This document shows positions 38,629 to 46,394 of a stretch of 64,000 nucleotides of DNA, piece by piece. Each line of letters opens with the position of its first letter. Position 1 is the first letter of the stretch. The notes under the pieces were generated by a model. The model was given only the letters and a program-made list of their open reading frames with translations, was not told where the DNA came from and did not search any database. A program made the position numbers and the translations under genes. Origin of the DNA: an uncultured Anaerolineales bacterium (lineage in GTDB: Bacteria; Chloroflexota; Anaerolineae; Aggregatilineales; Aggregatilineaceae); assembly GCA_937135955.1 (NCBI GenBank), contig CAKZOB010000042.1, forward strand, positions 1 through 64,000, given 5' to 3'.

Positions 38629-41600
38629 ATGAGCGAGAATCAGTCTCCCATCCCGGACTTTGCGACCCTGCCCGCCAGCGAGTTCACGCTGCCCTGCGGG
38701 TACGATCTGGCCGCCGACCCCGGCCTGGCCCAACTGCACCATTACCTGCCCGTGCTGGCGGTCATCGCCGCCCCCTTCGCCTCGATGAGCGGCACCGAAG
38801 ACCCGCTCAGCCCGGCGGACCCGGCCCAGGAATGGCTGGCGCTGCTGCGCACCGTGCGCCAGGTAACTTCGGAGGCCAGAGTGGGTAGCGCTCCCCTGGC
38901 TCTGGTGCGCTTGCTGCCCCCAACCTCCGAACGACTGGGAATAGCGCTCAGCGCGCGCGGGCCGGACGCCTTCCGCATCGTACACCTGATCGCGCACGCC
39001 GAACGCGACATCCTCTACCTGGAAGACGAAGAGGGCCGCGAAGCCTATGCTGTGGCCGAGCACATCGTCCGGCGCTTTGCCAGCAGCGACGTCCGTCTGG
39101 TGCTGCTGGACGGTTGCTTCAGCCGCCGCCTGGCGCAGATGCTGCTGGACGAAACGCCTGTGCAGGCTGTCATCGGCACCGTACGCCGCGCCAACGAAGA
39201 CTGCACAGTGGCTTTCAACGCCTGTCTCTACGCAGAGCTGGCGGGCGGAGCCAGCGTGCGTGAAGCCTTCCGCGCCGCCATCGCCGAGGTACGGGAACTA
39301 CCCAACAGTCAGCCCGAGCGCTACGAGTTGGTGCTCGCCGACGATCAGCACGATCTCCGGCTCCCCCTGCCCGAACCGGCTCACCGCGCCACGCGCCCCC
39401 TGGTCGCCGATGGACTGCCGCGCGCCTTTGAACTACCGCTGCCCACCGGCTTTATCGGGCGGCGCGAGTTGCTGGGCAGGCTGGCCGAAGACATGTTCAC
39501 CCACAACCGCCGCCTGCTCCTGTTAACCGGCCCTCAGGGCGTGGGCAAGCGCTCATTAGCCGCGGCCTTTGCCTATCGCTTTGGCTGGCGCTTCCCCGAT
39601 GGCATCGTCTGGCTGCGCTGCGGCCCTGCCATCACCGCCGCCGAAGTGCAAAGCACCCTGGCTCAGCTTGCCGGTCTGCCATCACAGGCAGCGCGGGCCG
39701 ACGTGCTGACGGCCTGGTCGGGGCGACGGCTGTTGCTGGTGCTACAGGACATTGACGCTCTGCCCTCTGGAACTGCGCGGGCCGAACTCGCCACCTTGCT
39801 GGCCGAGTTGCTCGCGTCAGCCCATCACGGCGTGCTGCTGACCGCCCAGGAAGCCGACGAAACGCTGTTACCCGCTGGCCCCACCTTCAGCGCCAAGGCG
39901 CGTCCAGTCGAGCCACTGACTGGCAAAGACGCGCGCACTCTGGCCATGCGCCGCGCAGTCCTGCGCCGGGTCGAGACGCTCGATGTAGACACCATAGACG
40001 ACTTTCTGGAGCGCACGCAGCAACTGCCCTGGCTGATTATCCGCGGCGTAGAGATGGTGCGCCGCGATGGGGTGGACGCGACGCTCAAGTACCTGAGTGC
40101 CTTCGACCAGGACGCGGCCACCCTGCCGCGCGCCTACCTGCGCCGTCAACTCGAATGGCTGCTGGCCGACCGCCGCGAGGTCTTCCGGCTGCTCATTCGC
40201 GCTCAGGGGTTGCCCGCCCCGCTCGACGAACGCCTGGCCCTGGGGCTGGCTGGCCGCGACGCCGCCGATCACCTGTCCGTCTTGCTCGATCGCGACATCC
40301 TGCAGCGCGACGGAACGCTGATCGCCATCCCCGCTGAGGTGCGCGCGTTCGTGTGGGAACGCTTCCCGCTCGACACGCCCAAGCAGGCGCACCTCGACCG
40401 CGTGATCGCGCAGTACTTCGCGCAGACCTGGCCCGACGAGGTGCCCACTCCCCTGCCTGCCGAGTGGCGGGCGCGCCTGAGCAACGTGCGCGCCCTGCTC
40501 GACCGCCAACTGAGCGGCCCGGTGTTGCTTTCGCCTGTCGAACTGGCCCGCCTGCTGGTAGTGACTGCGCCCGCCTTTCTGAATGCGGGGCTGGCCGAAG
40601 CCTTCCTGAGCTATGCCACGGCGCTGCGAGGTCGCCTGCCCGAAGGAGATGACCTGGCCCGCCTGCAAATGGCGATGGGCACGGCCCTGGCGGCGCTCCC
40701 CGGCAGGCAGGATGAAGCGGGGTGGCTGTTCCAGGTGACGCTGACTCTGGAACACCTCAGTCGCACCGCCCTGGCCGAAGCCAGCCTGGCCTACGGACGA
40801 CATTTGCTCGGCGTGGGGCAGAGCGGGACAGCGACCGACGTGCTGGCGCGCGCCTTCCGCGCGGTGATGGCGCAGCCGGAAGGAGCCAATGTGCGTGTAG
40901 CCGCCATGCTCGCTCACGAGTGGGGGCGCGCCCTGGCCGCACGGGATCAGCACGGGGATGCCATCAAGCGCTTCGAAGGGGCGCTGGCCGGATACGCGCG
41001 CACCAGGCAGGTAGCGCTCTCCGCCACCGCTCAGCGCGATCTGGGTCTGTCGTTGCTGGCCCAGGGTGACAGCGCCCGCGCTGAAGACGTCTTCCGGCGT
41101 GCCCTGGCGACAGCGGATTTCATTGCGCGGCGCGACCTGGCTGCCGACCTGCGCCGTCATCTGGCGGGCATTCACCTGGCGCGCGCCGGGCAGTTTCAAC
41201 ATGAAGAGCGCGTGACTGAAGCCGCCGCCGAGATGGGCGAGGCCGTGCGTCACCTGCATGGAGCCATCGCCGACGCCCTGACCACGCCCGACCGCCTGCT
41301 GCTGGCACACCTTCTGCACGATCTGGCGCGCGCTCAGGCGCAGGCGGGCATGATAGACGACGGAGCGGCCAATGCCGCGCGTGCGCACGTCCTTTTCACC
41401 GCCGTGAGCAGCTCATCTGACCTGGCCGAAGCATCCATCACGCTGGGACAGTTGCGCATGGCCCAGGGTGACTCCGTGCGCGCACAGGCGGCCCTGCACG
41501 AAGCGCTCGACCTGGCGCAGGCGCTCAACCTGTCGGAAGCCCTGGAGCGCGCCGCAACGGTCCTGGTGCGCGTGCATCAGATTCGCGCCCGCCATGCCCT

Positions 41601-41724
41601 GCAGGGGGATCAGGCCTTCCGCCGCGATACCATTGCGCAGGCCGAAGTCTCGCGCCGCCGCCTGGCCGAGCTTAACCTGGCCGAGCACGCCGCCGCGCTC
41701 GAACGCATCGCCCACAGCCTGTGA
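38629..41724 (+). CDS. CHAT protease-STAND NTPase-TPR protein
   Basis: The 1031-residue multidomain protein starts with a caspase-like CHAT domain (about 25-240): HLIAH (His119/His123) and LLDGC (Cys163) form the putative dyad. A STAND/NB-ARC-type NTPase follows (about 275-560), with Walker A GPQGVGKR (Lys307) and Walker B LLLVLQDID (Asp374). The rest (about 640-1030) is Ala/Leu-rich TPR repeats. This order of effector, NTPase switch and sensor repeats matches bacterial immune and cell-suicide ATPases. The Lys-Arg (KR rather than KS/KT) after the P-loop is atypical. No partner gene is obvious; the next gene is 282 bases away. Confidence 0.85.
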   Translation: MSENQSPIPDFATLPASEFTLPCGYDLAADPGLAQLHHYLPVLAVIAAPFASMSGTEDPLSPADPAQEWLALLRTVRQVTSEARVGSAPLALVRLLPPTSERLGIALSARGPDAFRIVHLIAHAERDILYLEDEEGREAYAVAEHIVRRFASSDVRLVLLDGCFSRRLAQMLLDETPVQAVIGTVRRANEDCTVAFNACLYAELAGGASVREAFRAAIAEVRELPNSQPERYELVLADDQHDLRLPLPEPAHRATRPLVADGLPRAFELPLPTGFIGRRELLGRLAEDMFTHNRRLLLLTGPQGVGKRSLAAAFAYRFGWRFPDGIVWLRCGPAITAAEVQSTLAQLAGLPSQAARADVLTAWSGRRLLLVLQDIDALPSGTARAELATLLAELLASAHHGVLLTAQEADETLLPAGPTFSAKARPVEPLTGKDARTLAMRRAVLRRVETLDVDTIDDFLERTQQLPWLIIRGVEMVRRDGVDATLKYLSAFDQDAATLPRAYLRRQLEWLLADRREVFRLLIRAQGLPAPLDERLALGLAGRDAADHLSVLLDRDILQRDGTLIAIPAEVRAFVWERFPLDTPKQAHLDRVIAQYFAQTWPDEVPTPLPAEWRARLSNVRALLDRQLSGPVLLSPVELARLLVVTAPAFLNAGLAEAFLSYATALRGRLPEGDDLARLQMAMGTALAALPGRQDEAGWLFQVTLTLEHLSRTALAEASLAYGRHLLGVGQSGTATDVLARAFRAVMAQPEGANVRVAAMLAHEWGRALAARDQHGDAIKRFEGALAGYARTRQVALSATAQRDLGLSLLAQGDSARAEDVFRRALATADFIARRDLAADLRRHLAGIHLARAGQFQHEERVTEAAAEMGEAVRHLHGAIADALTTPDRLLLAHLLHDLARAQAQAGMIDDGAANAARAHVLFTAVSSSSDLAEASITLGQLRMAQGDSVRAQAALHEALDLAQALNLSEALERAATVLVRVHQIRARHALQGDQAFRRDTIAQAEVSRRRLAELNLAEHAAALERIAHSL

Positions 41725-42687: not shown

Positions 42688-42692
42688 TACAC

Positions 42693-43562
42693 ATGGAATC
42701 CGTTCGCATCGCCGTCATTGGTGGCTCCGGGCTGTACGATATGCCCGAATTGAGCGACGTAACTGAAGAGCGCCTGGAGACTCCCTTTGGCCCGCCCAGC
42801 GACGCCATCCGCATCGGCACACTGGCCGGGCAACGTGTGGCGTTCCTGGCGCGACACGGGCGCGGGCATGTCCATCTGCCCTCCGAAGTGCCTTACCGCG
42901 CCAATATCTATGCCCTCAAGATGCTGGGCGTGCAGGAAGTGATCAGCGTGAGCGCGTGCGGTTCGCTCAAAGAGGCGCTCGCGCCGGGGCATGTGGTGGT
43001 GCCCGACCAACTGGTGGACTGGACGCGCGACAATCGGGGCCGTACCTTCTTTGGCAATGGCCTGGTCGCCCATATCTCCGCTGCCGATCCGTTCTGCCCG
43101 CGTCTGAGCGCTCTGCTGGCCGACGCTGTCGCAGCCGTCGGCGGCACGGTGCATCGAGGAGGTGTGTTCATCACCACCGAAGGGCCGCGTTTCGCCACCC
43201 GCGCCGAAAGCGCCCTCTATCGCAGTTGGGGCTATGACATCATCGGCATGACCACCGCGCCCGAAGCATTCCTGGCCCGCGAAGCGGAGATGTGCTACGC
43301 CGTGATGGCCCACGTGACCGACTACGACGTGTGGCACGAATCCGAAGCCGACGTATCCGTCGAACTGGTGCTGCAGACGCTGAGCGCCAACATCCGCCTG
43401 GCGCAGGAAGCGTTGATCGCCGTGGTACAGCGGCTGGGCAACGCCGCGGAAGACTGCGCCTGCCATCACGCCCTGGCCGACGCGCTGATCACCGCCCGCC
43501 AGGCCATCCCGCCGGAGACGCTGGCGCGGTTGCAGCCGATCGTCGGCAAGTATTTCGCCTGA
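42693..43562 (+). CDS. mtnP: S-methyl-5'-thioadenosine phosphorylase
   Basis: A 289-residue purine phosphorylase of the MTAP/PNP trimer class, which splits MTA in methionine salvage. It has the phosphate loop GGSGLYDMPELSD, LARHGRGHVHLPSEVPYRAN, VSACGSLKE and TEGPRFATRAES, and a conserved pair DYDVWH near residue 210. The ATG follows AAGGAG at a good distance. MTAP and related S-methyl-5'-thioinosine phosphorylases cannot be told apart by motif alone. It is probably in one transcript with the B-box gene before it and the SEDS gene after it. Confidence 0.93.
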   Translation: MESVRIAVIGGSGLYDMPELSDVTEERLETPFGPPSDAIRIGTLAGQRVAFLARHGRGHVHLPSEVPYRANIYALKMLGVQEVISVSACGSLKEALAPGHVVVPDQLVDWTRDNRGRTFFGNGLVAHISAADPFCPRLSALLADAVAAVGGTVHRGGVFITTEGPRFATRAESALYRSWGYDIIGMTTAPEAFLAREAEMCYAVMAHVTDYDVWHESEADVSVELVLQTLSANIRLAQEALIAVVQRLGNAAEDCACHHALADALITARQAIPPETLARLQPIVGKYFA

Positions 43563-43614
43563 GCGCCGTCATGCTCGCCCTTTGCTGGCGCTCTGGCGCG
43601 GACATAGCCAGACC

Positions 43615-44916
43615 ATGAGGACATTTCCCCTGTCAGCGGACGAAGTAGCGCCCGCTCAGCGTCGCGAACGATTGCTGCTGGCCCTGGCCGGAGCCTTCAT
43701 GCTGATCAACCAGGTTGCGCTGATTCTGGCGCGCAGTCGTCCCGCGCTCGACCTGTGGCCGGTGCTGGTGTGGGGAGCGTGCGCCGCTGCCGGGCATTCC
43801 ATCCTCAGCCGCCGTCTGCCCGCCCGCGACCCCCTGCTTTTCCCGCTGGCGATGCTGCTGGCTGGCTGGGGGTTGAACCTGATCGCCCGCCTGGTGCCCT
43901 CCTTCGCCGATCGGCAGACGCTGTGGCTGGTGATGGGCACGGGAGCGCTGCTGGGCCTCACCGCCCTGCCGCGCGACCTGCGTTGGCTGCGCCGCTACCG
44001 CTACACCTGGCTGATCGGCGGACTGGCCCTGCTCTTCCTGACCATCCTCATCGGTCAGAACCCCGCCGATACCGGCCCGCGCCTGTGGCTGTGGTTGGGA
44101 GTGGGGCGCATCTACTATCAGCCCTCGGAACTGCTCAAAATCCTGCTGGTGGTCTTTCTGGCCAGCTACCTGGCCGAACACCAGCGCTACATGCGCCAGG
44201 ATACGGTGCGCGTGGGGCCGTGGCAGGTGCCCTCGCTGGCTTTCCTGGGGCCGGTGTTGCTGATGTGGAGCATCTGCGTGGTCGTGCTCATCTGGCAACG
44301 CGACCTGGGCACAGCCACGCTATTCTTCGCCGTCTTCCTGGCCATGCTCTACCTGGCCAGTGGACAGGGTCTGTTGCTGGCGGGTGGAAGCCTGCTGATG
44401 ATCGCAGCGGCGGCGCTCGGCTACCATCTGTTCGACGTGGTCGCACTGCGCGTGAAGGTGTGGTGGAATCCCTGGCCCACTGCCGATGCCCAGGCGTATC
44501 AGGTTGTGCAAAGCCTGATCGCCGTTGCCTCAGGCGGGATTCTGGGCCAGGGCATTGGCCAGGGTCAGCCAGGGATCATCCCCGTCGTCCATTCAGACTT
44601 TGCCTTCGCCGCCATCGCGGAAGAATGGGGGCTGGTGGGCACGTTGAGCGTCATCGCCGCCCTGGCGACGCTGGTTATACGTGGGATGCGCATTGCCGCG
44701 CTGGCCAGTCATCCGTTCCGCACGCTGCTCGCCGCCGGTCTCAGCGTGTTGCTGGGAGTGCAGAGCCTGTTGATCATGGGCGGCGTGCTCAAGATCGTGC
44801 CGCTCACCGGCGTCACGCTGCCCTTCGTCAGTTACGGCGGCAGCTCGCTACTGACCAGTTTCGTCATCGTCGGGCTGCTGTTGATCCTCAGCGAACGGAG
44901 CGCGCCGACCCCGTGA
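43615..44916 (+). CDS. SEDS peptidoglycan glycosyltransferase (FtsW/RodA family)
   Basis: A 433-residue membrane protein with about ten to twelve helices. SEDS signatures are YYQPSELLKI, WQRDLGTATLF, HSDFAFAAIAEEWGLVG and LPFVSYGGSSLL. Asp328 in HSDF corresponds to the essential extracellular Asp of RodA/FtsW, so the polymerase site appears intact. It polymerises lipid II with a cognate PBP; the partner gene overlaps its stop (GTGA). The FtsW versus RodA choice is not resolved. ATG 43615 has no clear ribosome site, and a TTG at 43582 is an alternative. Confidence 0.92.
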   Translation: MRTFPLSADEVAPAQRRERLLLALAGAFMLINQVALILARSRPALDLWPVLVWGACAAAGHSILSRRLPARDPLLFPLAMLLAGWGLNLIARLVPSFADRQTLWLVMGTGALLGLTALPRDLRWLRRYRYTWLIGGLALLFLTILIGQNPADTGPRLWLWLGVGRIYYQPSELLKILLVVFLASYLAEHQRYMRQDTVRVGPWQVPSLAFLGPVLLMWSICVVVLIWQRDLGTATLFFAVFLAMLYLASGQGLLLAGGSLLMIAAAALGYHLFDVVALRVKVWWNPWPTADAQAYQVVQSLIAVASGGILGQGIGQGQPGIIPVVHSDFAFAAIAEEWGLVGTLSVIAALATLVIRGMRIAALASHPFRTLLAAGLSVLLGVQSLLIMGGVLKIVPLTGVTLPFVSYGGSSLLTSFVIVGLLLILSERSAPTP

Positions 44917-46394
44917 ACGAGACACACACCGCCCCCCGCGACCTGGTCCGCGTGGCCCTGGCCCTGCTGATCGCCTTCGGCGTCATCGCGCTGGCCTCTG
45001 TGTATTGGAGCGTGATCGCCGCGCCCGATCTGCTCGCTCGCGACGACAACGCCCGCAACATCATCGCCGAACAGCGCATCCGGCGCGGCGCGATCCTCGA
45101 CCGGACGGGCGAGGTGCTGGCCTTCAGCCAGGAGACCCCCAACGGGCTGACAGCACGGCGCTATCCGCAGCCGGTCGTCGCCAGCGCTGTCGGTTACTAC
45201 AGCCTGACCTATGGTACCGCGGGCATCGAAGCAGCCTACGACTCGCTATTGCGCGGGGACGAAGGTCGCGACGAACTGGACGCACTGCTCGACGATCTGC
45301 TGCACCGCGCCCCCCAGGGCGGCGACGTGCGCGCCACGCTCGACCTGCGCGTACAGGGAGCCGTCGCCGAAGCGCTGACCGGACGGGCTGGCGCGGCGAT
45401 TGTGCTCGATGTGCCATCGGGAGCAGTGCGAGCGCTGGTCAGTCAGCCCACATTCGATCCCAACACTCTGGACGCGCAGTGGGACGCACTGGTCGCCGAC
45501 CAGGGTGCGCCCTTGCTCAACCGGGTGACGGCAGGGCTGTATCAGCCGGGCGGTGTCTTCCAGACGGTGCTGCTGGGGGCGCTGTTCGCCACACAGCCCG
45601 ATCTTTCCGATGCAGGCGCAGGGTTGCTGACTCAGCCCGCGGACATCTTCAGCGAGCCGGTGCGCGTGGACGACCTGACGCTCGACTGCCTGCGCCAACC
45701 CATTACCGACACCCCCACCCTGGCCGACGCCTACGCTTTCGGCTGCCCGGCCCCCATCCTGGCCCTGGCCGAAAGCAGTCTTTCGTCCGAAGCCGTGCGC
45801 CAGCGCATGGAAGCACTCGGCCTGCTCGATGCGCTCGCGCTGACCGGTTTCCCGACCGTCACCGCACCGGCGACGTTGTTCCCCGCTGAGGTCTCGCCCA
45901 CCGCGCACAGGGCGCTGCTGGCCGGTCAGGGAGCGCTAACCATCACTCCACTGCATCTGGCGCAGATGGTAGCCGCCATCGCACACGGCGGCAACGCCGT
46001 GTCGTTGCACCTGGTAGATGCTGTGCGCCCGCCGGAGTCGTCGCAATGGCAGACGCCCTCCGCCCCAACAACGCGCGAACGAGCCATGCTCCGCGCAGAC
46101 GTAGCCGCGGCGTTGGAGAGCGCGCTCGCCTATGCTGCACGCACCAGTCCCGACACGGCCATCGCTGCCCCGCCAAACGTCCCGCTGTTCGGGCACAGCG
46201 CGCTGGCCTTCGCCGGGCCACAGAAAACCCCCTATGCCTGGTTCTACGGCTACGTGCGTCCAGACGACGCCGGTGAAGAGGCCATCGTGGTCGTTGTGGT
46301 GGTAGAGGACGAGCGCAACCCGGCAGTGGCCGCGCGGGTGGCGCGGGCCGCCTTCACCGCCGCCCTGCAAAACGACGAACCATCAGCCGATTGA
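44913..46394 (+). CDS. PBP2-like protein with all three transpeptidase motifs lost
   Basis: A 493-residue class B PBP homologue paired with the SEDS gene by a GTGA overlap. It has one N-terminal helix (about 12-35), the pedestal-like RGAILDRTGEVLAFSQ and a transpeptidase-like domain from about 150. Motif 1, normally PGSTFK, reads PGGVFQ (Ser to Gly214, Lys to Gln217). Motif 2, normally SxN, reads GCP (Gly277, Pro279). Motif 3, normally KTG, reads HSA (428-430). The surrounding sequence aligns well and the frame is open, so the protein is a structural pseudo-enzyme, not a pseudogene. It could act as a non-catalytic SEDS activator, as PBPs do allosterically. Confidence 0.88.
   Translation: MNETHTAPRDLVRVALALLIAFGVIALASVYWSVIAAPDLLARDDNARNIIAEQRIRRGAILDRTGEVLAFSQETPNGLTARRYPQPVVASAVGYYSLTYGTAGIEAAYDSLLRGDEGRDELDALLDDLLHRAPQGGDVRATLDLRVQGAVAEALTGRAGAAIVLDVPSGAVRALVSQPTFDPNTLDAQWDALVADQGAPLLNRVTAGLYQPGGVFQTVLLGALFATQPDLSDAGAGLLTQPADIFSEPVRVDDLTLDCLRQPITDTPTLADAYAFGCPAPILALAESSLSSEAVRQRMEALGLLDALALTGFPTVTAPATLFPAEVSPTAHRALLAGQGALTITPLHLAQMVAAIAHGGNAVSLHLVDAVRPPESSQWQTPSAPTTRERAMLRADVAAALESALAYAARTSPDTAIAAPPNVPLFGHSALAFAGPQKTPYAWFYGYVRPDDAGEEAIVVVVVVEDERNPAVAARVARAAFTAALQNDEPSAD

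Follow-up and report, generated by a model that had tools for sequence, protein, structure and literature searches.

The window analysed here, a 64,000-nucleotide stretch of DNA from an uncultured Anaerolineales bacterium, encodes a SEDS protein of the FtsW/RodA family with its catalytic aspartate in place and, directly downstream, a class B penicillin-binding protein (PBP) homologue that lacks the residues of all three transpeptidase motifs. The loss extends across most of the class Anaerolineae, in several families of which the two proteins form a single chain. We consider it probable that the pair is a working SEDS glycosyltransferase with a dead PBP as its activating scaffold, the cross-links being made by other enzymes.

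A SEDS gene coupled to a gene for a PBP without catalytic residues

The SEDS gene (43615..44916, forward strand; a TTG at 43582 is an alternative start) encodes a protein of 433 amino acids that scores 240.7 bits against Pfam FTSW_RODA_SPOVE and matches FtsW, T. thermophilus RodA and E. coli MrdB in the PDB. Asp328 (numbered from the ATG at 43615; codon 44596..44598), which the first-pass annotation had described as kept, lies in an HSDF motif and indeed aligns with the aspartate of HTDF in RodA and FtsW. The equivalent residue is mutated to alanine in T. thermophilus RodA entry 6PL6, and the D262A substitution of the catalytic aspartate of E. coli RodA abolishes polymerisation (PMC6207328). 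With the PF01098 fold and a catalytic aspartate in H[ST]DF, the protein has the features of a SEDS glycosyltransferase. The aspartate is conserved in all 118 readable orthologues, whether the accompanying PBP is active or dead, and so, in active and dead lineages, are the E of PSE (119 of 119) and the D of QxDLG (118 of 118).

The PBP gene (44913..46394, forward strand) starts with a GTG that overlaps the SEDS stop codon by 4 bp (GTGA, in ccccGTGAac). The cognate genes are thus adjacent and coupled here, or fused elsewhere, as in a SEDS-class B PBP synthase; cross-linking by the pair, judged from sequence only, is not expected, since the partner PBP has no catalytic residues. The 493-amino-acid product has the architecture of a PbpA-type class B PBP: an N-terminal helix (residues 8-35, 44934..45017; AlphaFold secondary structure) that would serve as the membrane anchor, a PBP_dimer_2 pedestal (residues 58-139, 45084..45329; 50.4 bits against a Pfam cut-off of 27) and a transpeptidase-fold domain (PF00905; residues 160-479, 45390..46349; 58.5 bits against a cut-off of 22.1). 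The AlphaFold model (pLDDT 90.9, pTM 0.89) shows the PbpA fold, and M. tuberculosis PbpA, about 27% identical, is the closest solved relative by both sequence and predicted fold (best E 5e-30; TM 0.75 by query and 0.83 by target). The first-pass annotation had named the protein a PBP2 homologue; it is of class B, and the nearest type is PbpA, with PBP_dimer_2, rather than E. coli PBP2.

Alignment with M. tuberculosis PbpA (3UN7) shows what has replaced each motif in the intact reading frame: PPGSTFK reads QPGGVFQ, KSCN reads FGCP and SKTG reads GHSA. The SxxK position is thus GVFQ (G214-Q217, 45552..45563), the SxN position GCP (G277-P279, 45741..45749), with its Cys and Pro conserved in orthologues, and the KTG position HSA (H428-A430, 46194..46202), all three as first annotated. 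His in place of the KTG Lys is not disabling alone, some D,D-peptidases using HTG; by contrast, the loss of SxxK together with SxN is predicted to disable the enzyme. No Ser/Lys pair can be placed elsewhere in the domain: K438 is the only Lys among the 493 residues, and SxxK occurs at no place in them, so that re-alignment cannot rescue catalysis by the classical mechanism. By its sequence, then, the protein is a PBP homologue but not a penicillin-binding transpeptidase.

Catalytic loss across Anaerolineae

In a first search, nearly all of 60 relatives yielded a relative, and in most of them the closest was the orthologue. Sampling was then broadened to 249 genomes of the class and 301 of the phylum, and 143 orthologous loci were aligned. 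The PBP is catalytic at 33 of these loci and dead at 110, nearly all of the latter from class Anaerolineae (Chloroflexota). Every active copy has the Ser and Lys of SxxK, the Ser and Asn of SxN and the Lys and Gly of KTG (or KSG). Every dead copy is missing the SxxK Lys, and a single one (L130) keeps the KTG Lys. In the window's order (L009-L058), no orthologue has the Lys of SxxK, the Asn of SxN or the Lys of KTG. The substitutes are themselves conserved among the dead copies (QPGGxLQ, GCPxPF, GHxA), with the SxN Asn changed to Pro in 76 and the KTG Lys to His in 60. In eight close pairs dN/dS was 0.04-0.43, and the pedestal was usually below the dead domain. On these alignments and ratios, the loss is lineage-wide, with purifying selection acting on the protein. 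The genomes from the window's family are draft assemblies.

The disappearance of all three motifs is also what a decaying pseudogene or an assembly error might produce, but intact open reading frames in at least eight families of the order, from independent genomes, with conserved replacement residues and low dN/dS, leave this reading next to no probability. A frame error, a pseudogene, chance and a sequencing error were ruled out by the orthologues that share the loss and by the seven intact PBPs encoded elsewhere in the same genome.

The Cys that precedes the substituted Pro, C278 in the window protein, is present in 77 of the 77 dead orthologues that retain the region, and might suggest an unprecedented acyl-enzyme with another nucleophile, of which this invariant Cys of GCP would be an example. 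We regard such chemistry as very improbable: the presence of another invariant Cys, C259, points to a disulfide, a Cys stands at this position beside an intact Ser in 18 of the 33 active homologues, and other lineages have lost the region altogether.

Fusion to SEDS and erosion of the transpeptidase part

At 46 sampled loci from several Anaerolineae families, SEDS and the dead PBP were found in one open reading frame with no stop codon in between, giving fusions of about 750-950 amino acids. These loci (among L093-L164, plus L035 and L182) lie outside the window's order, except for one (L035) inside it. A scan of named genomes with the fused Anaerolineales form as query yielded 65 contigs (L191-L255) showing both SEDS and a dead PBP, and in all 65 the two were one open reading frame; most of the contigs are labelled Anaerolineales or Anaerolineae, Chloroflexota. 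One of them, L193, is labelled as a Herpetosiphon sp. metagenome-assembled genome and encodes an Anaerolineales-type fusion (69% identity); the label looks wrong.

The transpeptidase part of two families, f11 and f34, measures 184-240 amino acids, down from about 320, and has lost the SxN-bearing region. The N-terminal and pedestal part, by comparison, has a median of 167-169 amino acids in dead lineages against 168 in active copies. The model of an 806-amino-acid fusion (pLDDT 89.2, pTM 0.81) shows a PBP part that still matches PbpA-type structures. Chemistry lost, fold partly lost in some lineages and anchor and pedestal kept is the pattern that a scaffold model predicts, and the retention of the dead PBP beside SEDS or fused to it suggests that holding SEDS or switching it on is the task left to it.

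In the window's order, purifying selection still acts on the full-length dead domain, an indication that the domain does more than a bare pedestal would; it may have a binding role. A domain re-purposed to bind or sense nascent peptide, lipid II or a partner protein, and so to gate SEDS, would be a sub-form of the scaffold model. The conserved replacement motifs (QPGGxLQ, CPxPF, GHxA, GQG and a W) and a dN/dS of about 0.03-0.43 in the dead domain would fit such a module. We nevertheless hold it to be unlikely, as the deletion of the SxN region in f11 and f34 means that the function could not be general, and the ligand is hypothetical.

Other wall enzymes and a putative role as SEDS activator

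Two further SEDS proteins are encoded in the window's genome besides the one with Asp328; the gene of one adjoins Mur ligase and Glyco_transf_28 genes and that of the other shares a contig with mreB and PBP2. Seven other PBPs, three of class B and four of class A, all have intact SxxK and KTG, and there are five YkuD-type L,D-transpeptidase domains. A shortage of other cross-linkers was therefore rejected. One class B PBP (L001, on C33) carries a MecA_N (NTF2-like) domain beside its intact SxxK and KTG. Of eight other genomes checked, seven carry three SEDS genes and the eighth carries two, so that the SEDS-dead-PBP pair is an addition, absent from some lineages.

The first-pass annotation had proposed either a PBP kept as an activating scaffold or a lineage with a different cross-linking scheme. 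The latter is not needed, given the motif-bearing PBPs and YkuD domains of the genome, and nothing found points to it. The former fits best: the loss marks a whole lineage and purifying selection persists, the SEDS residues and the pedestal are kept, and, in loci outside the window, the transpeptidase part is eroding and fusions occur; activation itself we infer.

Class B PBPs activate their SEDS partners in addition to performing their own chemistry. In the machine that we propose, the SEDS protein would polymerise lipid II as a glycosyltransferase, and the PBP, a pseudoenzyme, would bind it through its membrane helix and pedestal and either hold it in the active state or bring it there, as both scaffold and allosteric activator; cross-links would come from the other transpeptidases of the cell. 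A physical complex, activation and a glycan-strand product are thus all presumed. Work on other bacteria offers precedents. The transmembrane helix of E. coli PBP2 alone, in a fusion, significantly stimulates RodA polymerisation (PMC10449877), and in vitro activation of RodA has been seen with a PBP2 variant (PMC6207328). Division still proceeds with catalytically inactive PBP2b in B. subtilis or SpoVD in C. difficile, inactive SpoVD depending on its SEDS partner for this (PMC12713402).

The product of the pair could also be something else, a glycan to which D,D-transpeptidation never adds cross-links or another lipid-linked polymer. The pair is a third SEDS system beside two others, so its substrate could have drifted, and a partner in such a synthesis needs no transpeptidase. 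Against this, active and dead lineages have the same SEDS catalytic residues and synteny ties the locus to active pairs, and we rate this reading as distinctly improbable. A broader proposal, to which we assign a low probability, is that in much of the class a SEDS-PBP synthase has become a glycosyltransferase of one or two chains whose transpeptidase is vestigial; polymerisation would then be fully separated from cross-linking, and the product might consist of uncross-linked strands or another polymer.

Comparison with known SEDS-PBP systems

Among the closest known systems to the putative activator pair is RodA-PbpA of Actinobacteria (M. tuberculosis PbpA, PDB 3UN7/3UPP), whose PbpA-type class B PBP has the same fold and PBP_dimer_2 pedestal. 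M. tuberculosis PbpA, however, is an active, penicillin-acylated transpeptidase, whereas the window PBP has lost all three motifs. RodA-PBP2 and FtsW-FtsI have the SEDS catalytic Asp and the class B PBP architecture in common with the window pair; their PBPs are catalytic, unlike the dead one here, which comes from a genome with two other SEDS proteins. Functional parallels are the laboratory mutants of B. subtilis PBP2b and C. difficile SpoVD (S311A), in which a dead PBP supports a SEDS-dependent process (PMC12713402), but those are engineered point mutants, and the Anaerolineae loss is natural, old and spread across most of the class. Natural SEDS-PBP fusions in a single open reading frame are on record in a genome paper of McLeod and colleagues, as cited in PMC10449877. 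They resemble the Anaerolineae fusions in being one polypeptide and differ from them in that the latter carry a dead and often shortened PBP. A naturally dead class B PBP with a SEDS partner was not reported in the open-access literature searched.

The role of the PBP as allosteric activator as opposed to transpeptidase has been studied with engineered mutants, and here the transpeptidase chemistry has been removed naturally, with the rest kept, across most of a class. The graded series from active to dead full-length to shortened and fused forms shows which parts of the PBP are indispensable to a SEDS enzyme. The fused forms are natural single-chain complexes, ready for biochemical and structural work. 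The PBP of such a machine should be blind to beta-lactams.

Neighbourhood and descent of the locus

Upstream of the SEDS gene lies an mtnP/MTAP-like gene of the phosphorylase superfamily (42690..43562, forward strand, start approximate; Pfam PNP_UDP_1, 165 bits). An mtnP-like gene adjoins the pair in catalytic loci, both of other classes and of Anaerolineae, as well as in dead and fused loci, and this shared mtnP-SEDS-PBP neighbourhood indicates that active and dead copies represent one orthologous locus. FHA-domain genes occur near active as well as dead Chloroflexota loci. Since the actinobacterial rodA-pbpA operon contains an FHA-domain gene, this is a further likeness between the two.

Trees were built from SEDS and the pedestal, the catalytic columns being left out, by quick searches under two models. 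They require at least three changes of activity, two of which depend on the loci L130 and L182. When these are set aside, the dead copies fall on one side of a branch with support of about 94-95, which is not starred. A single loss of catalysis would be the simplest reading of these trees, short of proof. Judged by starred branches, the fusion state changed at least five to six times, by fusion or fission.

In L130 (G066) the core from SxxK to SxN is a low-complexity run of E, L and G with KTG kept, and its genus-mate L092 is active; L130 is possibly a recent independent loss or an assembly artefact. L182 (G302) is a fused dead copy from a genome placed in another class of the phylum, with 8% contamination, and the genome may be misassigned. 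Further upstream in the window, 38629-41724 encodes a 1031-amino-acid protein with TPR repeats, for which only TPR families pass the Pfam thresholds; its front part, by eye, might be guessed to be CHAT- or ATPase-like.
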